Of a stretch of DNA of 64,000 bases, positions 42,528-53,337 are shown piece after piece. Position numbers and translations under genes: made by a program. Under the pieces are notes generated by a model. It saw only the letters and a program-made list of their open reading frames with translations. It was not told where the DNA came from and made no database searches. Source of the stretch: Herpetosiphon giganteus (lineage in GTDB: Bacteria > Chloroflexota > Chloroflexia > Chloroflexales > Herpetosiphonaceae). Positions within the stretch are counted from its first letter, which is position 1; the number at the start of each line of letters is the position of its first letter. The stretch lies in assembly GCF_016907925.1 (NCBI RefSeq), contig NZ_JAFBCZ010000013.1, forward strand, positions 62,001 through 126,000, in the 5' to 3' direction.

Positions 42528-43496
42528 TTAGGCGGCGAGGCGTTTGGTGCGGCGTAAAGCCAAGCCAGCAACGGTGGCAACCAACACAGCTTTGTGGGTA
42601 TGCAAGCGATTTTCAGCTTGATCAAACACAATCGAACGCTCGCCATCAGCAACATCGGCGCTAATTTCCTCGCCACGATGCATTGGCAAACAGTGCATTA
42701 CTTTGGCTCCAGCATTAGCTGCGGCCAACAGTTCAGCATTAATTTGAAATGGTTGTAGCGCTTCCAAATGACCTTCGGCCACGACTTGGCCCATACTGAC
42801 CCAAACATCGGTATACAACACATCAGCATTCTTGACAGCTTCCAACGGATCGTTGGTCACGATGATTTTGGTGCCATTGGCGGCAGCTTGCAAGCGGGCT
42901 TGAGCCAACAACTGCTGATCAACATTCGCCACAAATGGCGTGCCGATCGCAAAATCCATGCCCAAGCGTGGCGCAATCTCCAACAACGAATTGGAAACAT
43001 TATTCGGATCGCCAAGGTAGACCAATTTCACACCTTTGCAACTGCCAAAATGCTCGCGAATCGTTAAGGCATCGGCCAAGGCTTGCACCGGATGCAGCCA
43101 ATCGGAAAGGCCATTGATCACTGGCACATCGGCGGCTTCGGCCAACTCGACCAAGGTAGCGTGATCGTTGACCCGCGCCATAATCGCATCGCACATGCGG
43201 CTGAGCACGCGCGCGGTATCGCCGATGGTTTCGCCACGGCCAATTTGCGTATCGCGGGGGCTAAGGTAAATGCCATGGCCGCCGAGTTGCACCATTGCCG
43301 ATTCGAAGCCAACGCGGGTGCGGGTTGAAGGCTTTTCGAAAATCATCGCCAAGGTGCGGTTTGCCAGCAGGGGATGCGCTTTGCGGCGTTGTTGGCGCAG
43401 TTTGAGTTCGGCAGCAGTTTCGAGCACGTCGAGCAATTCAGTGTCGTTCCAATCGGCCAAGGCCAGTAAATCGCGACCAAGAAGTGAGTGTGTCAT
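42528..43496 (-). CDS. argF: Ornithine carbamoyltransferase
   Basis: A 322-residue enzyme converting ornithine and carbamoyl phosphate to citrulline. The carbamoyl phosphate motif is STRTR at 57-61, with HPVQALAD in the middle and MHCLPMHRGEEIS near residue 270. GGAGG precedes the ATG. It is the last gene of the minus-strand arginine cluster, 51 bp after argH. Confidence 0.95.
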   Translation of the reverse strand: MTHSLLGRDLLALADWNDTELLDVLETAAELKLRQQRRKAHPLLANRTLAMIFEKPSTRTRVGFESAMVQLGGHGIYLSPRDTQIGRGETIGDTARVLSRMCDAIMARVNDHATLVELAEAADVPVINGLSDWLHPVQALADALTIREHFGSCKGVKLVYLGDPNNVSNSLLEIAPRLGMDFAIGTPFVANVDQQLLAQARLQAAANGTKIIVTNDPLEAVKNADVLYTDVWVSMGQVVAEGHLEALQPFQINAELLAAANAGAKVMHCLPMHRGEEISADVADGERSIVFDQAENRLHTHKAVLVATVAGLALRRTKRLAA

Positions 43497-43547: not shown

Positions 43548-44912
43548 TCAGCCTTCTGCTAAAACGTGTTGAGCAGCAATCAGTTGGTCGCGCACGGCGT
43601 TGGGCGCTGTTCCACCAGGTACGTCGCGCATGGCGACAGAACGAGCAAAATCGAATAAACCAGCAACATCGGTCAAGCTTGGGTGGGCTGCAACGAAGCT
43701 TTCAGCAGGCAATTGGCGCATGCCAACGCCGCGTTGTTCAGCTTCGCGCACCAAGCGCCCAGCAATATGATGGGCTTCGCGAAATGGCACTCCCCGGCGT
43801 ACCAATTCATCAGCCACATCAGTCGCCAACATCGCATCATCCAAGGCCGCCGCCATGCGTTCGGTGTTGAAACGGGCGGTGCGAATTGCCCCAGCAACCA
43901 CCGGCAAAGTTAGGTTTAATGTATCGATCGCATCGAATAAGGGTGCTTTATCTTCTTGTAAATCTTTGTCGTAGGCCGATGGCAAGCCCTTGAGCAAGGT
44001 CAAAACCGTAACCAGATTGCCGATTAAACGGCCAGATTTGCCGCGTGCCAATTCGAGCGAATCGGGATTTTTCTTTTGGGGCATTAAACTTGAGCCAGTT
44101 GAATAGGCATCATCAAGCGCCACAAAGCCCCATTCGGCGCTGCTCCAGATGATCCAATCTTCTGCAAGCTGGCTGATGTGCACACCCAATAAGGCCGTTG
44201 CCGCCAAAATTTCGACAATATAATCGCGATCGCTGGTGGCATCGAGGCTATTTTGGCTGATGCTGGCAAAGCCTAATTCGGCTGCCAGTGCTGCCCGATC
44301 GACCGCAAACGCTGTGCCTGCAAGCGCGCCAGAGCCAAGCGGCAAGACGCTGACTCGCTTGGTAGCATCGTGCAAACGCTGGCGATCACGATCTAAACGC
44401 CAAAAATGAGCCAACAGGGCGTGTGATAATAAGACTGGCTGCGCCCGTTGTAGGTGGGTATAGCCAGGCAACATTGCCTCGCCAACTGCTTTGGCTTGCT
44501 CTAGCAATGCCGCTTGCACATCGCGAATCAAATCATCGGCCAATTTGAGTGCGCCTAACGTCCACAAACGGGTATCGGTTGCCACTTGATCGTTACGCGA
44601 GCGGCCAGTATGCAATTTGCCCGCCAAGGCTCCGATGAAATCACCCAAACGGCGTTCGACCGCCGTGTGAATATCTTCATCGCTGGTTAACGACAAAAAC
44701 AGGCCTTCTTCAAACTCCTGTGCCACTTGGCGCAAGCCTGCGATCAATGCTTGGCATTCATCAGCTTGCAAAATGCCAGCCCGCTCTAAGCCATTGGCCC
44801 AAGCAATCGAGCCACGAATATCCTCGGCCCATAAGCGCCGATCGACTGGAAACGAATCGTTGAATAAGCGCATATGCTCAGCCAACGAGCCACTAAAACG
44901 TCCACCCCACAT
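43548..44912 (-). CDS. argH: Argininosuccinate lyase
   Basis: A 454-residue fumarase-superfamily enzyme producing arginine and fumarate. MWGGRFSGSLAEHM starts the protein, with HTGRSRNDQVATDTRLW, TAGYTHLQ-type PGYTHLQRAQP and the signature loop GSSLMPQKKNPDSLELARGKSGR. It lies 192 bp after argJ, a gap filled with an inverted repeat and simple repeats. Confidence 0.96.
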   Translation of the reverse strand: MWGGRFSGSLAEHMRLFNDSFPVDRRLWAEDIRGSIAWANGLERAGILQADECQALIAGLRQVAQEFEEGLFLSLTSDEDIHTAVERRLGDFIGALAGKLHTGRSRNDQVATDTRLWTLGALKLADDLIRDVQAALLEQAKAVGEAMLPGYTHLQRAQPVLLSHALLAHFWRLDRDRQRLHDATKRVSVLPLGSGALAGTAFAVDRAALAAELGFASISQNSLDATSDRDYIVEILAATALLGVHISQLAEDWIIWSSAEWGFVALDDAYSTGSSLMPQKKNPDSLELARGKSGRLIGNLVTVLTLLKGLPSAYDKDLQEDKAPLFDAIDTLNLTLPVVAGAIRTARFNTERMAAALDDAMLATDVADELVRRGVPFREAHHIAGRLVREAEQRGVGMRQLPAESFVAAHPSLTDVAGLFDFARSVAMRDVPGGTAPNAVRDQLIAAQHVLAEG

Positions 44913-45104: not shown

Positions 45105-46292
45105 TTACGTCCGATAATCGGCGTTGATTCGTACATATTCGGCGCTAAAATCGCAGGTCCAAGCATAGCCAGTGGCCGCGCCCGCCCCAAGATTAAGCCG
45201 AATTGCCACATGCTGGCCGCTGATTTGGCTGGCAGCTTCGCGTTCGCTATAGTCGGTGGGCGTGCCACCAGCAACTAATTGCACCTCGCCCAACCAAAGT
45301 TCAACTTGGCTAGGATCGAATGGGACACCAGCTACGCCAGCAGCTGCCAAAATTCGGCCCCAATTGGGATCACCGCCGTGAATCGCGGTTTTGACCAACG
45401 GTGAGCAGGCAATTTTGCGAGCAACAGTACGCGCTGCGGCAACACTTGGCGCATGAGCAACCGTGACGGTGACCAATTTGGTTGCGCCTTCGCCATCGGC
45501 GGCAATTTGTTTGGCCAAATCGATGCAGACCGCTTCGAGCGCTTGGCGGAAACTAGCAATATTGCTGGCGTTGATCGTCACGCCACTTGCGCCCGAGGCC
45601 AACAGCAACAACGTATCGTTAGTACTTGGGTCGCCATCGACCGTAACGCAATTGAACGATGCGTCGCTAACTTCACGTAACAAGCTTTGGGCCAAATCAG
45701 CATCGATAGCCACATCGGTGGTGACAATCGACAGCATGGTTGCCATCATCGGATGGATCATGCCTGCGCCTTTGGCAACGCCTGCAACCGTCACCAAACT
45801 CCCATCGATCACCGCATTGGCGCTAGCGGTTTTGGGGCGGGTGTCGGTGGTCATAATTGCTTCGGCAAGCGCTGGAGCATGCTCAACACCCAGTTCTGGG
45901 GCGATTGCAGCAACGCCCTTGGCCACTTTTTCAACATTCAGTTGATGGCCAATTACGCCAGTTGAAAGCACTAAAACCTGATGCGGCTCGCAGCCAACCG
46001 CCTCAGCCGCCAAACGAGCCATTTCGCGAGCAGCAGCATCGCCTTGTGCGCCAGTACAAGCGTTGGCACAACCAGCGTTGGCAATAATTGCCCGAATTTC
46101 GCTGGCATGCTCGGCTAACACTGCTTGATCGTAGAGCACTGGCGCGGCTTTGACGAGGCTGGTGGTAAAAACCCCAGCCGCCGTACAAACATCATCAGCA
46201 ACAAGTAAACTTAAATCAGGATTACCACTGGCCTTCAAGCCACATCGCCCCGCAGCACTGCGGAAACCAGGAGCAAAACGAAAGATACTCAT
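45105..46292 (-). CDS. argJ: Bifunctional ornithine acetyltransferase / N-acetylglutamate synthase
   Basis: A 395-residue, self-cleaving enzyme of the cyclic arginine pathway. KGAGMIHPMMATMLSIVTTD contains the autoproteolysis site before Thr185. GVFTTSLVKAAPV and NAGCANACTGAQGD in the N-terminal chain and VDGDPSTNDTLLLLASG in the C-terminal chain are typical. It starts 2 nt after the argG stop, so the two are coupled. Because argA is also present, this ArgJ may act mainly as the recycling ornithine acetyltransferase. Confidence 0.95.
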   Translation of the reverse strand: MSIFRFAPGFRSAAGRCGLKASGNPDLSLLVADDVCTAAGVFTTSLVKAAPVLYDQAVLAEHASEIRAIIANAGCANACTGAQGDAAAREMARLAAEAVGCEPHQVLVLSTGVIGHQLNVEKVAKGVAAIAPELGVEHAPALAEAIMTTDTRPKTASANAVIDGSLVTVAGVAKGAGMIHPMMATMLSIVTTDVAIDADLAQSLLREVSDASFNCVTVDGDPSTNDTLLLLASGASGVTINASNIASFRQALEAVCIDLAKQIAADGEGATKLVTVTVAHAPSVAAARTVARKIACSPLVKTAIHGGDPNWGRILAAAGVAGVPFDPSQVELWLGEVQLVAGGTPTDYSEREAASQISGQHVAIRLNLGAGAATGYAWTCDFSAEYVRINADYRT

Positions 46293-46294
46293 GC

Positions 46295-47506
46295 TTATTC
46301 GGCTCCTGAGGTTAAGGCTTCGACTTTTTGGGGCAAGCCAAAGAGCTTGATAAAGCCTTCAGCATCTGCTTGGTTATAAACGGCATCTTCGCTGAAGGTT
46401 GCCAAATCGGGCACATACAAGCTGCGTTCGGCCTTGCGTCCAACCAAATGCACGCCACCTTTGAAGACCTTCAAACGGGTCAAGCCAGTGACGTTCTTTT
46501 GGGTTTCGGTGAAGAACGCCGACAAGGCATAGCGCAACGGCGACCACCATTGGCCGTTGTAAATCAACTCTGAGAAGCGAATTGCCAAGGTATCTTTGTA
46601 GTGCAAGGTTTCGCGATCGAGCGCCAATTCTTCGAGGCCTTGATGAGCGCGATAGAGCAACGTGCCGCCTGGCGTTTCGTATACGCCATGGCTCTTCATG
46701 CCAACTAAGCGATTTTCAACCAAATCGACACGGCCAACGCCATGGCGTGCGCCAATCTCGTTGAGGGTTTGCAGCAAAGCCACGGGGCCAAGTTGTTCGC
46801 CATTCACGCTCACTGGAATGCCGCGCTCGAAGCCAATTTCCAGATATTCTGGCACATCAGGCGCTTGTTCTGGGGTAACGGTGCGTTGGAACATATTTAA
46901 TTCTGGCTCCAGCCATGGATCTTCCAACGAGCCGCCTTCGTGGCTCAAGTGCCAAATATTGCCGTCGCGGCTGTAGATTGAGGCGCGGGTGCTGGTAACT
47001 GGCACATTGTGCAATGCAGCATAATCAAGCGCATCTTCGCGTGAGCGAATGTGCCATTCACGCCATGGGGCGATAATTTTCATGTGCGGAGCCAAAGCCA
47101 TATAGGTCAATTCAAAGCGTACTTGATCGTTGCCTTTGCCCGTACAGCCGTGGGAAAGTGCATCAGCACCAACTTTCAAGGCGGTTTGCACTTGGCCGCG
47201 CGCGATCAATGGGCGAGCGATGCTGGTACCAAGCAAATAGGTGCGTTCGTAAGTTGCGCCCGATTGCAACATTGGAAACAAGAAATCGCGCACAAATTCT
47301 TCGCGCAAATCTTCGACATAGCAGGCACTAGCGCCTGAAGCAATGGCTTTGGCCTCTACGCCGCTCAGATCGTCATCTTGACCAAGATTGGCGCAATAGC
47401 AGACGACTTCACAGCCATAATGTTCCTTCAACCACGGCACAATCACGCTGGTATCCAAGCCACCAGAGTAAGCCAGCACAACTTTCTTTGCAGTCGCATT
47501 CGACAT
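46295..47506 (-). CDS. argG: Argininosuccinate synthase
   Basis: A 403-residue ATP-dependent ligase of citrulline and aspartate. PP-loop motif [17 protein letters not shown] is near the N-terminus, and [12 protein letters not shown] and [15 protein letters not shown] follow. The start is within a base or two of 47506: AAGGAGTTCATTGGTC precedes the ATG, and a TTG two codons earlier is the alternative. Its leader contains an exact 70-bp tandem duplication. Confidence 0.95.
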
Positions 47507-47523
47507 GACCAATGAACTCCTTA

Positions 47524-47663
47524 TTGAAAGGATGAAGGATGAATTATGAGGGAGGAAACCCCTGAACCATCCTTCATTTCACAACATACACATTTGAAAG
47601 GATGAAGGATGAATTATGAGGGAGGAAACCCCTGAACCATCCTTCATTTCACAACATACACAT
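47524..47663. repeat. Exact 70-bp tandem duplication in the argG leader
   Basis: Two identical 70-bp units (47524-47593 and 47594-47663), each starting TTGAAAGGATGAAGGATGAA and ending AACATACACA-TT, are followed by the first bases of a third. Each unit holds GGATGAA and TTCATCC copies in inverse orientation, so each can fold. It lies between argA and argG. Confidence 0.92.
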
Positions 47664-47724
47664 TTGAGGATAAACCTAAGGAATCGGATCTTCATCCTTC
47701 ATCCCTCATAATTCATCCTTACGA

Positions 47725-48228
47725 TTAATGTTCCCAAACGACGGCGGTTTCGTCACAGCAGGTGACGAGTGGACACTTGACACAATCGCGCCAAACCTTT
47801 TCGGGGAAGCGTTCTTTGTCGGTGATCGTAAAACCCAAGCGCACAAAAAACGAGACAGCGCGGGTCAAGGCAAAAACTGTATGAATTTGGCGCAATTTGG
47901 CTTGAGCAACCAGTTCGAGCACAATTTTGGCACCAACGCCAGCAGCGCGATACTCGGTTGCCACGGCTAATGAGCGAACCTCAACCAGATCAGGATTCAT
48001 CAGCAACAACGAGCCAATGCCAATCACCCGTTGGCCATGGCAGGCAACTACCCAATTTGCTAAAGAAGCACGAATTTCGTCAGCGGAACGGGGTAATAAA
48101 TGCCCAGCCCGCACATTTTCGGCTACCAACTCAGCCATGCCAGCCACATCGTCTTCATGGGCGGGCCGAACCACAATGTCCGCAGGATCGATTGGAGCCA
48201 AAACTGTACTTTGTTGAATGGCAACCAT
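47725..48228 (-). CDS. argA: N-acetylglutamate synthase, short GNAT form
   Basis: A 167-residue single-domain acetyltransferase. The acetyl-CoA loop is VATEYRAAGVGAKIVLELV. The C-terminal pattern FALTRAVSFFVRLGFTITDKE, then PEKVWRDCVKCP and CCDE, is characteristic of short ArgA-type synthases. It makes N-acetylglutamate for arginine synthesis, in agreement with its place between argB and argG. It lacks the amino-acid kinase-like regulatory domain of classical ArgA, so feedback control must be elsewhere. Confidence 0.9.
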   Translation of the reverse strand: MVAIQQSTVLAPIDPADIVVRPAHEDDVAGMAELVAENVRAGHLLPRSADEIRASLANWVVACHGQRVIGIGSLLLMNPDLVEVRSLAVATEYRAAGVGAKIVLELVAQAKLRQIHTVFALTRAVSFFVRLGFTITDKERFPEKVWRDCVKCPLVTCCDETAVVWEH

Positions 48229-48722: not shown

Positions 48723-49469
48723 TTAGGCGGCCTCGATAATCGTGCCAGCCTCAAGCTGATCGATGTTAGTGATGCGGACGACTTTCACGCCAGCCTGCAA
48801 GCCGCTCAAGGCCGATTCAACCTTGGGAATCATGCCGCCGCTGATTGTGCCATTGGCGATTAATGCCTGAATTTCGTTGGTGTTGAGCCGTGGCGCAACC
48901 ACGCCATCAACCAAAACTCCAGGCACATTCGAGATAAACACGGCTTCGTCGGCTCCAACCGCGGCAGCAATCGCACCTGCAAATACATCAGCATTCACAT
49001 TCAACGTGCCGCCAGCGCCATCAGCACAAATTGGGGCCAGCACTGGCACAACATCAGCAGCCAAGGCCTCATATAAAATCGTGGCCCGAATCCGCGCTGG
49101 TTTGCCAACTGCACCCAAATCGCCAGCTTCGTGCTCCACGCGGGTCGCATAGACCAAGTTGCGATCAATGCCCGACAAGCCGAGGGCTTCCACGCCAACT
49201 GCATTCAGCGCTGCCACCAAGCGGGTGCTAACACTGCCACAAAGTACCATCGTGGCAGCTTTGAGCGCGGTTTGGTCGGTTACGCGCAAGCCCGCCACAA
49301 ATTGCGGCTCACCACCAAGCGCGACTTGCAATTGGCCAATTTCTTTGCCGCCACCATGGACCAAAATTGGCACATCGTGGGCGTTGACCATGGTTTGGAT
49401 GACCGCAACCAAGCGCGCCAACCACGTTGGGTCATCAATTTCGTTGCCGCCAAGCTTCAAGATTCGCAT
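48723..49469 (-). CDS. argB: Acetylglutamate kinase
   Basis: A 248-residue amino-acid kinase phosphorylating N-acetylglutamate. ILKLGGNEID, LVHGGGKEIGQL, GLRVTDQTALKAATMVLCGSV and NVNADVFAGAIAAAVGADEAVFI span the fold, and GGMIPKVESAL holds the ATP-side Lys. ATG 49469 has GGAG 5 nt upstream. It starts 10 bp after the argC stop, so argC and argB are one unit. Confidence 0.95.
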   Translation of the reverse strand: MRILKLGGNEIDDPTWLARLVAVIQTMVNAHDVPILVHGGGKEIGQLQVALGGEPQFVAGLRVTDQTALKAATMVLCGSVSTRLVAALNAVGVEALGLSGIDRNLVYATRVEHEAGDLGAVGKPARIRATILYEALAADVVPVLAPICADGAGGTLNVNADVFAGAIAAAVGADEAVFISNVPGVLVDGVVAPRLNTNEIQALIANGTISGGMIPKVESALSGLQAGVKVVRITNIDQLEAGTIIEAA

Positions 49470-49478
49470 CACCCACTC

Positions 49479-50489
49479 CTAACGCAAGCCCGTGGTTTCA
49501 GGCAAGCCAAACATAATATTCATATTTTGAATTGCCTGCCCAGAAGCGCCTTTGAGCAAATTATCAATCGCCGAGGTGACGATCAGCATGCCAGGCTGGG
49601 CCAGCGTCAGGCCAATTGCACAATCGTTGGTATGCACCACATGCGCCAAACTGGCCAATTGACCTTGATCAAGCACATTGACAAATGGCTCGTTGGCGTA
49701 GCGCTCACGATAGAGCGCATGAATCTGGGCCAAATCCAGCTCTGGCTGAATTGGCACATAGATTGTGCTTAAAATACCGCGTTGGGTCGGCAAGAGGTGT
49801 GGTGCAAAAATCGTGTTAACTGCTGCGTTTGCCAACTTGCTCAGTTCTTGCTCAATTTCGCCAACATGGCGGTGGGTATGGCCAATGTTGTAGGGGCTAT
49901 AGTTTTCGTGAGCCTCGACGAAATGCAAGTGTTGCTTAGGTGAGCGGCCTGCGCCCGAAACGCCCGAAGCAGCATTGATGATGATAGTTTGGCCAGTTTG
50001 CCACCAACCTTGCTCCAATAATGGCGCTAAACCAAGCAGCACACTGGTGGGGTAACAACCAGGGTTGGCAATCGCTGGCACATCAACCAGCGCGGCGCGA
50101 TTCAATTCAGGCAAGCCATAGGGTGCGTTCAAGAGTTCGGGGTGGGGATGCGTGTGGTCGTACCAGCGGGTGTAAGCGGCGGGGCTGTCCAAGCGAAGGT
50201 CGGCGGAGAGGTCAATGGCTTTGACACCATTCTGGCGGGCCTCTGCCACCGTTTTGGCAGCGACACCGTGCGGCAACCCCGTGAAAATCACATCAACAGT
50301 CTGCCAATCAACCTGATTCGCAGCTAATAAGGTCAGATCAAGTGGGCCGGGCACAACCTCGGCCAAACGCTTGCCCGCCGCCGATTCCGAGACAGCCCAA
50401 ACGAGGCTGGCCTTTGGGTGACGTTGTAGCCAGCGAGCTAGTTCGTATCCGGCGTAGCCCGTTACGCCAAAAATCCCAACACGAATCAT
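49479..50489 (-). CDS. argC: N-acetyl-gamma-glutamyl-phosphate reductase
   Basis: A 336-residue NADPH-dependent reductase. GVTGYAGYELARWLQRHP is the N-terminal nucleotide motif, and VPAIANPGCYPTSVLLGLAPL holds the catalytic Cys in NPGCYPT. ATG 50489 has GGGAG 6 nt upstream; the longer frame begins in a GGATGAA repeat. It is the first structural gene of the arginine cluster, 112 bp beyond the terminator of the leader described below. Confidence 0.96.
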   Translation of the reverse strand: MIRVGIFGVTGYAGYELARWLQRHPKASLVWAVSESAAGKRLAEVVPGPLDLTLLAANQVDWQTVDVIFTGLPHGVAAKTVAEARQNGVKAIDLSADLRLDSPAAYTRWYDHTHPHPELLNAPYGLPELNRAALVDVPAIANPGCYPTSVLLGLAPLLEQGWWQTGQTIIINAASGVSGAGRSPKQHLHFVEAHENYSPYNIGHTHRHVGEIEQELSKLANAAVNTIFAPHLLPTQRGILSTIYVPIQPELDLAQIHALYRERYANEPFVNVLDQGQLASLAHVVHTNDCAIGLTLAQPGMLIVTSAIDNLLKGASGQAIQNMNIMFGLPETTGLR

Positions 50490-50505
50490 TGCGAACTCCC
50501 TATCG

Positions 50506-50590
50506 TTAAGGATGAAAGATGAAGGATGAGGGATGAACACATGGGTGTTCCATCATTCAACCGTTTCATCCTTCATCCCTCATCCTTCAT
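50506..50590. repeat. Inverted GGATGAA / TTCATCC repeats before argC
   Basis: Strings AAGGATGAAAGATGAAGGATG (about 50509-50530) and CATCCTTCATCCCTCATCC (about 50567-50587) are inverse to each other around CACATGGGTGTTCC. They can form a long hairpin between the attenuator terminator and the argC ribosome-binding site. Confidence 0.65.
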
Positions 50591-50600
50591 AATTTCGCGC

Positions 50601-50647
50601 TAAAAAAAGTTTCCCCCCGAACCATCAATTGAGGCTCGGGGGGAAAC
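50601..50647 (-). terminator. Attenuator terminator of the arg operon
   Basis: On the minus strand GTTTCCCCCCGAGCC (50647-50633) pairs with GGTTCGGGGGGAAAC (50623-50609), fully paired in RNA apart from one G-U, with a 9-nt loop. Seven T follow. It lies 33 nt past the leader-peptide stop and 112 bp before argC. Confidence 0.92.
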
Positions 50648-50679
50648 GCTTGGGCGTTTATGATCTTGCTCGTTGCCTG

Positions 50680-50781
50680 TTATCCAGCACAAACGGCGCA
50701 AGCCCACCGAACCTCGTTGGTACGGGGACGACGCAGCCGCAATGCTGGCGAAAAAAGGTTGGTGAGCATTTGTTTCTTCAT
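50680..50781 (-). CDS. Arginine-rich leader peptide of the arg operon (33 aa)
   Basis: ATG 50781 to TAA 50680 encodes 33 residues: MKKQMLTNLFSP, ALRLRRPRTNEVRW, ACAVCAG. Five Arg codons (CGG, CGT, CGT, CGT, CGG) fall in an 11-codon window, three of them in RRPR. A consensus promoter places the start site only about 5 nt before the ATG, so the mRNA is nearly leaderless and no ribosome-binding site exists. Codons for TNEVRWA overlap a segment (50713-50703) that is complementary to the 5' arm of the following terminator. It reads as a regulatory peptide whose translation senses arginyl-tRNA. The two Cys codons near the stop are unexplained. Confidence 0.8.
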   Translation of the reverse strand: MKKQMLTNLFSPALRLRRPRTNEVRWACAVCAG

Positions 50782-50791
50782 AATGTCGCGA

Positions 50792-50820
50792 ATAATAGTG
50801 CGATTTAGATATTTTGTCAA
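50792..50820 (-). promoter_or_regulatory. Promoter of the arg leader and operon
   Basis: On the minus strand a perfect TTGACA (50820-50815), exactly 17 bp, and TATTAT (50797-50792). The expected start is near 50786-50784. Confidence 0.88.
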
Positions 50821-50882: not shown

Positions 50883-52070
50883 TTAAAGCTTGCTAATAGT
50901 TGGCCGTTCGCCAGTGTAGCGCGCTCGTGGCCGAATCAAGCGTGCATCGCTATATTGCTCCAACGCATGGCCAATCCAGCCAACGCTACGGCCTAAAGCA
51001 AACAGGCTCATCGCGCTGCCCAACGGCAAATTCAGCACTCGCCCAACCCACGCCAAGCCAAAATCAATCGTCGGATGATCGCCCAACAATTCATAAACTG
51101 CTTGAATAATTCGATCAATATCGCTGCTAAATTGGGGCGCTAATTGACGAATCAAATCGAGCAGCACTTTGCCGCGTGGATCGCCATTGGGATACATCGG
51201 GTGGCCAAAGCCAGGTATCGGCTGGCCTAAGCGCAATTTTTGGGCCAAAACAGCAGCCATATCGGGGCTACGCAACAGCTCATCCAACAGCAACTCGCTT
51301 AATTCGCTTTGCTTGCCATGATGCACGCCGCCCAGCGCCGCCAAGCCAGCACTCACCACTGCATACAAGGTTGTGCCTGCCGAGGCAACACAGCGAGCAG
51401 TAAACGATGAGACGTTTAATTCATGATCAGCACTCACAATTAACGCAGCGTTGAGCAGCGGCTGCAAATGCGATGGGATCTGCCATGCTTCGGCCAAATG
51501 GGCGACGATTGGGCCTTGTAATGGGCGTTTGGCGGCAACACTAAACAGCAATTGTACAACCCGTACTGCCGTGCGTTGCAAGCCTTGCAACCGTTGATCA
51601 AAGGCTGCATGATCGTTGCTGCCAACCATCGCCAAGGCAATAACACATTGCTCAATCAACGCCAAATCAGGCAATTGTGGGATACTAATCGCTGGCAAAT
51701 CGGCCCATAATTGGCTGCTCTGTTGGCGCTCACCAGTCCAAATTAGGCTGGCAACTTCTTCGATGCTCGCATTCAAGGCCAAATCGCGCACATCAATCCC
51801 GCGATAATACACCAGTTGATTATCGATCAACGTGATTGCTGAATCGAGCACTGGCGTGCCCCAGTGCAGTGCACCAGCCGCCACACTGGCTGGATTGCGT
51901 CGCCCTTCACGACGCAGTTTCAATTGCTCAACTTCATCGAACAAATAGCGATGAGCATGCGCTCCGGCTGGCTCCGAGTGCAGCAACCCGCGGCTCACAT
52001 AGGCATACACGGTTGGCACACTGATTCCCAAATGCTCGGCCACTTCGCGAGCACTCAAATAGCGCGTCAT
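50883..52070 (-). CDS. Helix-turn-helix / citrate synthase fusion
   Basis: A 395-residue protein. Residues 1-55 form a MerR/excisionase-type helix-turn-helix (YLSAREVAEHLGISVPTVYAYVSRGLL), and residues 70-395 a citrate synthase fold. Catalytic candidates are His in VHHGKQ, His in GFGHPMYPNGDPRG and Asp in PTIDFGLAWV. In the second motif Pro replaces the Arg of GFGHRVY, so activity is doubtful. ATG 52070 has GGAG 7 nt upstream. It is divergent from a standard citrate synthase gene, with 139 bp between starts; it could be an enzyme, an enzyme-like regulator, or both. Confidence 0.88.
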   Translation of the reverse strand: MTRYLSAREVAEHLGISVPTVYAYVSRGLLHSEPAGAHAHRYLFDEVEQLKLRREGRRNPASVAAGALHWGTPVLDSAITLIDNQLVYYRGIDVRDLALNASIEEVASLIWTGERQQSSQLWADLPAISIPQLPDLALIEQCVIALAMVGSNDHAAFDQRLQGLQRTAVRVVQLLFSVAAKRPLQGPIVAHLAEAWQIPSHLQPLLNAALIVSADHELNVSSFTARCVASAGTTLYAVVSAGLAALGGVHHGKQSELSELLLDELLRSPDMAAVLAQKLRLGQPIPGFGHPMYPNGDPRGKVLLDLIRQLAPQFSSDIDRIIQAVYELLGDHPTIDFGLAWVGRVLNLPLGSAMSLFALGRSVGWIGHALEQYSDARLIRPRARYTGERPTISKL

Positions 52071-52103
52071 TGCGTTGCTCCATTCCAATATTGATTCATC
52101 AAT

Positions 52104-52137
52104 CAACATTGACAACATTGATAAATCTATTTATAGT
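52104..52137 (+). promoter_or_regulatory. Citrate synthase promoter with tandem 9-bp repeats
   Basis: TTGACA (52109-52114), exactly 17 bp and TATAGT (52132-52137). Two adjacent CAACATTGA repeats (52104-52112, 52113-52121) overlap the -35, and TTGATTCATCAATCAA lies just upstream. These are candidate sites for the divergently encoded helix-turn-helix protein. Confidence 0.75.
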
Positions 52138-52209
52138 CGATAGCAGCAGGAATTTCAAGCGGCAAAATTGCCGCTCAAGGCCTAACACGCTGGAAAGGAT
52201 CGATTGTCA

Positions 52210-53337
52210 ATGGCGACTGAAACCCAAGTTCATGTAGGTTTAGAAGGCATCGTTGCCGCAGCAACGCGGCTCAGTAGTGTCGATGGCCAAGCAGGCGAAT
52301 TAATTATTGCTGGTTTTCCATTGGAGCGTTTGGCCCCCTTTGCTACCTTCGAGGAAACCATTTTTCTGTTGTGGAATGATCATTTACCCAGCCAAAACGA
52401 GCTAGCCGAATTGCGCCAAAGCCTTGCCAGCCAACGCCAATTGCCAGCCTTAACGTTACAAGTGGCCCAGCAACTTGGCCGCGAACAGATCGACCCGATG
52501 GATGCGTTGCGCGCTGCCACAGCCACATTAACCCCGTTGGCCGACGAAAAAGCTACAGCGCAGCGGATTGTCGCCGCTTTGCCAACGATTGTGGCGGCCT
52601 ATTGGCGCGCCCGCAACCAAGCCGAATTTATCGAGCCGCGCAGCGATTTAAGCCATGCCGCCAATTATTTGTGGATGTTGACTGGCAACGAGCCAAGCGC
52701 CGAGCAAGTGCGTGCCCTCGAAACCTATCTCAACACGGTGGTTGACCACGGCTTGAACGCCTCGACCTTCACCACCCGCGTGATCATCTCGACCGAATCG
52801 GATTTGGTTTCGGCGGTAACTGGCGCAATTGGCGCACTCAAAGGGCCGTTGCATGGCGGCGCACCAGGCCCAGCCTTGGATATGGTGTTTGAAATTGGCA
52901 CTGCCGATCGCGCTGAGGAAGTGCTACGCGCCAAGTTGGCTCGCGGCGAGCGCTTGATGGGCTTTGGTCATCGCGTCTATAAAGTGCGCGATCCACGGGC
53001 AGAGGTTTTGGCAGGCGCTGCCGATCAACTGTTTGCCAACGATGGCAACCGCGAATTGTACGAATTGGTGCGCCACGTTGAGCAAACCGCAATTCGCTTG
53101 CTCGAAGAACACAAACCAGGCCGCAAATTGCAAACCAACGTCGAGTTTTATACCGCGTTGCTGTTGCATGGCATCGATTTTGAAACCGATTTGTTTACGC
53201 CAACCTTCACCATCAGCCGCGCCGTTGGCTGGATTGCCCACGCCTTCGAGCAACGCGCCGTTGGCCGGATTATTCGGCCTCAATCGGTCTACACTGGCGA
53301 ACGCAACCGCACGTGGGTTGATGTCGCCGAGCGCTAA
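52210..53337 (+). CDS. Citrate synthase
   Basis: A 375-residue short-type (type I, non-hexameric-like) citrate or methylcitrate synthase. GPLHGGAPGPALDM (His), MGFGHRVYKVRDPRAEVL (His), and NVEFYTALLLHGI (acid Glu where Asp is usual) mark the active site, with AVGWIAHAFEQ near the end. The start is either ATG 52210 or TTG 52204; the AAGGAT site favours neither clearly. Condenses oxaloacetate with acetyl-CoA (or propionyl-CoA). It has its own promoter and a family B repeat pair downstream. Confidence 0.92.
   Translation: MATETQVHVGLEGIVAAATRLSSVDGQAGELIIAGFPLERLAPFATFEETIFLLWNDHLPSQNELAELRQSLASQRQLPALTLQVAQQLGREQIDPMDALRAATATLTPLADEKATAQRIVAALPTIVAAYWRARNQAEFIEPRSDLSHAANYLWMLTGNEPSAEQVRALETYLNTVVDHGLNASTFTTRVIISTESDLVSAVTGAIGALKGPLHGGAPGPALDMVFEIGTADRAEEVLRAKLARGERLMGFGHRVYKVRDPRAEVLAGAADQLFANDGNRELYELVRHVEQTAIRLLEEHKPGRKLQTNVEFYTALLLHGIDFETDLFTPTFTISRAVGWIAHAFEQRAVGRIIRPQSVYTGERNRTWVDVAER

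Follow-up and report, generated by a model that had tools for sequence, protein, structure and literature searches.

A very probable arginine-sensing transcription attenuator ahead of argC in Herpetosiphon and other Chloroflexota

Introduction

Ahead of argC in Herpetosiphon giganteus lies a short open reading frame (ORF) rich in Arg codons, followed by a hairpin and a run of T, and the question that this locus raises is whether translation of the ORF switches the arginine genes behind it. For several amino acids, attenuation by a leader peptide is textbook knowledge, and arginine biosynthesis has been described as the territory of the repressor ArgR or of T-boxes. Naville and Gautheret took leader-peptide systems to be known in Proteobacteria and Actinobacteria and added Firmicutes (PMC2965389), and a survey of Actinobacteria found no conserved RNA element upstream of the arginine operons there (PMC1262725). 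In the open-licence literature we found neither an Arg-codon attenuator of an arginine biosynthetic operon nor leader-peptide attenuation in Chloroflexota; the systems are placed only in Proteobacteria, Actinobacteria and Firmicutes.

Here we analyse a stretch of 64,000 nucleotides from a Herpetosiphon genome (the window; genome G000), for which a preliminary description had proposed an arginine attenuator, together with arginine loci of other Chloroflexota. We regard it as highly probable that the leader is a ribosome-mediated transcription attenuator, in which arginine would be sensed by translation of Arg codons and which would control argC-B-(GNAT)-G-J-H-F. Arginine supply would very probably be read via the speed of the ribosome over these codons, not via the usual arginine repressor protein.

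Results

The leader in the window

The features of the leader and of the gene cluster behind it are collected in Table 1. The preliminary description had listed, for the minus strand, a promoter of the form TTGACA-17-TATTAT, an ORF of 33 codons (five of them for Arg), a strong intrinsic terminator between ORF and argC, and four segments able to pair in alternative ways; all were found where it had put them.

Table 1. Coordinates of the leader and the arginine gene cluster in the window
Feature	Position	Strand	Description
Promoter	50792..50820	-	-35 TTGACA 50820-50815, 17-nt spacer, -10 TATTAT 50797-50792
Leader peptide ORF	50680..50781	-	33 codons, MKKQMLTNLFSPALRLRRPRTNEVRWACAVCAG; Arg at codons 15, 17, 18, 20, 25
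Segment 1	50719..50727	-	CCCCGTACC; able to pair with segment 2 (minimum-energy fold)
Segment 2	50703..50713	-	GGTTCGGTGGG; predicted antiterminator 5' strand, pairs with segment 3
Terminator 5' arm	50633..50647	-	GTTTCCCCCCGAGCC; contains segment 3 (50643-50633), also the predicted antiterminator 3' strand
Terminator 3' arm and T7 run	50602..50623	-	GGTTCGGGGGGAAAC; arm 50623-50609, segment 4 50623-50613, T7 50608-50602
argC, first structural gene of the operon	49479..50489	-	TIGR01850, E 9e-114; starts at 50489
argB	48723..49472	-	TIGR00761
GNAT acetyltransferase, argA-like	47725..48228	-	best NCBIfam matches are N-acetyltransferases, below curated cut-offs
argG	46295..47512	-	TIGR00032
argJ	45105..46292	-	TIGR00120
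argH	43548..44912	-	TIGR00838
argF	42573..43496 (end coordinate approximate)	-	TIGR00658

The promoter equals the consensus at 11 of 12 positions. The terminator begins 32 nt past the stop codon of the leader ORF and its hairpin folds with -30.7 kcal/mol; segments 2 and 4 are equal at 10 of 11 positions. Folding of the leader RNA, which had been proposed as a check, showed it to be more stable than its dinucleotide shuffles (z -5.56, 0/200). The start codon of the ORF lies only 10 nt past the -10 box, a spacing from which we infer a leaderless or nearly leaderless mRNA, with an untranslated region (UTR) of at most ~3 nt; the first reading had overlooked this layout.

Behind the leader the genes follow in the order argC-B-(GNAT)-G-J-H-F, one strand throughout. 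The gap between terminator and argC holds, at 50504-50607, an inverted repeat of GGATGA-like units that is present in four Herpetosiphon genomes, and a similar repeat lies near 47579-47711. In H. geysericola and H. aurantiacus the inverted repeat in the gap is a different one, which suggests that these are small mobile palindromes. Sub-threshold microRNA-like Rfam matches at 50504-50607 are explained by the inverted repeat. On the other side of the leader, a citrate-synthase-like gene (50883-52118) has an extra N-terminal stretch resembling a helix-turn-helix, and it and a second such gene (52204-53337) are mutually divergent.

Conservation among relatives

ORF, promoter and terminator stand ahead of argC in all six Herpetosiphon genomes and in two further members of the family (G007, G008). 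Every genome of family f3 with usable upstream DNA has an Arg-rich ORF and terminator there, the ORFs keeping their place while differing in sequence (e.g. MLYTFAQCYTLRRRTRRPARKGLGLG, MNQMPDSLRTLRRFRRPGCTGLEG, MKDVSMLNSRVLRRTIRRRVRTGPGAALCIGL). The start codon is 7, 9 or 10 nt past the -10 box, with TTGACA 17 nt further up, in 31/31 leaders of f1 and f3. Among 43 argC leaders that we collected, an ORF with an Arg cluster is found in 42, against 150/4300 dinucleotide shuffles, and such an ORF with a promoter in register in 33, against 1/4300; the set was gathered where leaders had been seen, so these counts measure distance from chance, not frequency.

Leaders of different clades share little beyond the Arg codons, which persist while terminator and spacer sequences turn over. 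Across several Chloroflexota families Arg cluster and terminator keep their position as their sequences diverge. Loss of the Arg codons, or of the identity between segments 2 and 4, had been named in the preliminary description as what would tell against it; the relatives gave the opposite outcome, with segment 2 changing together with the terminator arm.

A scan for promoter plus Arg codons missed several distant leaders, which have weak -35 boxes or long UTRs, and upstream regions were read by eye instead. An Arg-rich ORF followed by a terminator stands ahead of argC in one locus of the Anaerolineae (L035), in five of family f25 (L145, L209, L211, L212, L217), and in L146 (f37), L213 and L214 (f69), L216 (f52) and L222 (f73). 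The leaderless layout is not universal: the 5' region is longer in L213, L214 and L146. In L222 two short ORFs that overlap at a shared ATGA, MFIMYIL and MSQNINIRFYRRRPTPLKVVLGNLCS, lie ahead of the terminator and argC. L215 and L210 are weak candidates, and L219 has no leader element ahead of argC.

No convincing element was seen at 37 other argC loci of Chloroflexota, upstream of eight argC2 paralogues, or at 74 argC loci of genomes that are not Chloroflexota; all five composite matches among these last end in RKARRRKQFSKR, a tail in which we recognise that of ribosomal protein S9. Most genomes of the order searched also have a second argC-like gene without leader (34-39% identity; e.g. G000:C35:33546-34553). 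The Arg leader is missing in Chloroflexus-like genomes (L122, L125, L127, genus g12). There argC is preceded by a conserved ORF of 28 amino acids (MFTRLLRFLRRLGQIHPAVIAIAPDRTW-like) and a Shine-Dalgarno-like sequence, with no terminator. No Arg leader was seen at Herpetosiphon carA, nor a Trp leader at trpE in 11 genomes.

Position at the head of the operon

In families f2 and f4 and in genome G006 the element is missing ahead of argC and found ahead of argG. Two genomes, G006 and G009, were examined in detail, and in both argH and the GNAT gene lie upstream of argC. Upstream of argG, an Arg-rich ORF and terminator were present in all seven loci first examined (L232-L238), and of 23 further genomes 17 have there an Arg-rich ORF with a T-run behind it; many of the ORFs end in a related RRxRRQPAxRPG pattern. 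From these arrangements the element appears to follow whichever gene heads the operon. It is missing at argG of G028, G030 and G020 (L239-L241). The argG found in these three genomes is only a distant one (31-33% identity).

The signal: ArgR, Arg codons and tRNAs

ArgR (PF02863) was found in 0/82 genomes of the order and 0/14 distant genomes, the same search being positive in 8/14 control genomes; 11 of the 14 distant ArgR-negative genomes carry a clear leader. Of 102 sampled Chloroflexota, 16 have ArgR. A scan upstream of argC in six ArgR-positive genomes (G099, G114, G122, G149, G152, G156) returned no leader.

Arg codons of the leaders are biased, to CGT in f1 and f3 and to CGA in genus g6, and argC prefers CGC; the difference in codon choice between leaders and argC is significant in three clades (Fisher p 7e-14, 1.5e-3 and 8e-15). 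The tRNA-Arg anticodons of G000 are GCG (two genes), UCG, CCG, UCU and CCU (loci L251, L254, L261, L263, L264, L275), and none with ACG was found in this genome, which is unusual for a bacterium. Reading of CGU by an inosine (ACG) tRNA is hence wrong for G000; given established decoding rules and the lack of ACG among the anticodons found, CGU should be read by tRNA-Arg(GCG) via G-U wobble. Theory (PMC1183508) connects the choice of codons in an attenuator with the charging of tRNAs.

Competing pairings

Attenuation would require that a leader segment and the terminator 5' arm can form an antiterminator that excludes the terminator, and such a pair is found here. Over 28 representatives, the cognate duplexes of segment 2 with the terminator arm total -559.9 kcal/mol. 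With permuted partners the mean is -467.5 (sd 17.1), and none of 200,000 permutations did as well as the cognate set; in an earlier test with 13 representatives, 109/100,000 did. The permutation ignores species relatedness, and swaps among close relatives should render it conservative. For four of the 28 (L035, L028, L015, L236) cognate 2:3 pairing does not exceed what composition predicts.

In an alignment of 11 f3 leaders, 91.8% of the cells of the 2:3 helix are paired, falling to 61.8-65.5% when the strands are slid by one, and columns 41/112 carry a compensatory exchange of A-U and G-C. The terminator helix of the same family has 89.1% of cells paired and 13 double changes. A protector hairpin over the control codons (1:2) pairs in 92.2% of f3 cells; shuffles are equally good and a phylum-wide permutation of this pairing was null, so that the predicted 1:2 pairing is there without support from covariation. 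The preliminary description had suggested looking for covariation of all three pairings in relatives; 2:3 and 3:4 bore this out in the f3 alignment and 1:2 did not.

Ribosome geometry and constrained folding

In all 25 leaders with segment 2 placed, 26-44 nt separate the first clustered Arg codon from the start of segment 2. Because of this spacing, a ribosome stalled at that codon would leave segment 2 free in 25/25; stalled at the last clustered Arg codon it would do so in 18/25. The control codons are thus positioned as an attenuator would need them. For 14 of the 25 leaders, a ribosome that has reached the stop codon would overlap segment 2. In the remaining leaders, Herpetosiphon included, segment 2 lies further upstream of the stop codon, and segment 1 would have to sequester it.

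Constrained folding was done on the leader before the 3' arm is made, for 28 representatives. The share of the terminator arm paired to the leader had a median of 0.71 for a ribosome halted at the first Arg codon, 0.36 for the ribosome-free leader and 0.53 for a ribosome at the stop codon; it was higher in the stalled than in the ribosome-free state in 16/28 and lower in 3/28. In equilibrium folding of the Herpetosiphon leader, a ribosome at the stop codon gives 0.66, equal to the stalled value, and does not by itself restore the terminator; the ribosome-free leader gives 0.05, and the terminator is restored.

Discussion

Proposed mechanism

We propose that transcription from the TTGACA/TATTAT promoter yields a leaderless or near-leaderless mRNA, on whose 5'-terminal AUG a ribosome would load once it emerges. 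With arginine plentiful, the ribosome would pass the Arg cluster and reach the stop codon, segment 2 would be covered by it or sequestered by segment 1, segment 3 would pair with segment 4 and transcription would end ahead of argC. With charged tRNA-Arg short, the ribosome would stall at codons 15-20 and leave segment 2 free to pair with the emerging segment 3; no terminator would form and the arg genes would be transcribed. In the many relatives whose segment 2 lies at the stop codon, the terminating ribosome would simply cover it.

The attenuator of the preliminary description is upheld by the Arg cluster, the terminator, the covariation of 2:3 and the absence of ArgR, and is refined in two points, the lack of covariation support for 1:2 and the frequent position of segment 2 at the stop codon. 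Counting against the mechanism are the missing covariation of 1:2, the folding of the Herpetosiphon leader with a ribosome at the stop codon, the four representatives whose cognate 2:3 pairing only equals the composition level, and the absence of the element from Chloroflexus-like genomes. Going further, we consider it somewhat more probable than not that, for a large part of Chloroflexota, a codon-reading and mostly leaderless Arg attenuator represents the ancestral way of controlling arginine synthesis, standing in for ArgR, moving with the head of the operon, and tuned by one Arg codon per clade (CGU via G-U wobble of tRNA-Arg(GCG) in Herpetosiphon, CGA in g6).

Other explanations

The leader peptide might itself sense free arginine or ornithine from within the exit tunnel and stall the ribosome, with no part for starvation of tRNA at the codon level. 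An RRP-like core does recur among the leader peptides of several families, and Arg-codon leader peptides that act otherwise are known (speF orf34, PMC6386406). Yet across families no residue is conserved except the Arg codons, and the proline of RRP coincides with the CC of segment 1. No match of the leader peptide to Pfam or NCBIfam, including ORF34/SpeFL (PF10940), was found up to E 1, a search whose power is limited by very short queries. Stalling by high arginine would moreover activate these genes at times of ample supply, the opposite of what a biosynthetic pathway needs. We hold such nascent-peptide arrest to be improbable.

Still less probable is a metabolite-binding riboswitch or T-box with an incidental ORF. 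T-boxes for arginine genes are listed in other bacteria (PMC1262725), but in the leader neither the T-box model (RF00230) nor any other Rfam family matched above its gathering score, and the turnover of terminator and spacer between clades, with the Arg codons persisting, leaves no conserved aptamer core. Least probable of all, to the point of being nearly negligible, is that the ORF is Arg-rich by chance and the hairpin merely terminates the upstream gene: the citrate-synthase-like gene on the same strand does end upstream, at 50883, but a consensus promoter separates it from the ORF, the whole layout is kept in families with other upstream sequence, and shuffles yield an Arg-cluster ORF with a promoter in register at the 1/4300 given above.

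Comparison with known systems

An arginine attenuator across ArgR-less Chloroflexota would widen both the signal and the host range of leader-peptide attenuation. The Arg leaders would also be a natural test, for an amino acid with six codons, of the theory of codon choice and selective tRNA charging, and so large and divergent a set would let the minimal design rules of an attenuator be read off.

Several known systems share the signal and differ in what is done with it. ArgR/AhrC responds to arginine at the same genes; it is a protein repressor, undetected in the leader-bearing genomes. The orf34 leader of speF in Salmonella likewise combines Arg codons in a short leader ORF with alternative RNA structures and an arginine response, but it controls putrescine synthesis, acting on the stability of the mRNA and on how accessible the ribosome-binding site is (PMC6386406), and its peptide belongs to PF10940, which the leader peptide of the window does not match. 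In Staphylococcus aureus, rbfL (MVLKYRKR) also senses arginine limitation by Arg codons in a short ORF; it blocks translation initiation of a biofilm regulator, and so concerns neither transcription attenuation nor arginine synthesis (PMC13009471).

Closest by mechanism are attenuators of the trp/his type and the leaderless ones for Cys in mycobacteria. The trp, his, leu, ilv, thr and phe attenuators of Proteobacteria, Actinobacteria and some Firmicutes likewise have codons for the end product in the leader ORF, a terminator before the first gene, a competing antiterminator and a pathway operon downstream; the leaders described here differ from them in the arginine signal, the Chloroflexota host, the mostly leaderless ORF and, in several leaders, a segment 2 at the stop codon. 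The mycobacterial poly-Cys attenuators (Canestrari 2020), as presented in the paper that cites them (PMC13236596), also have, before the operon, a short leaderless ORF rich in the amino acid that is sensed, which is cysteine there and would be arginine here. Cys leaders in Actinobacteria lack obvious terminators (PMC1262725), whereas the Chloroflexota leader has a strong intrinsic one. The proposed mechanism thus belongs to a known class; new, as far as the open-licence literature shows, are its amino acid, its host phylum and the mostly leaderless layout.
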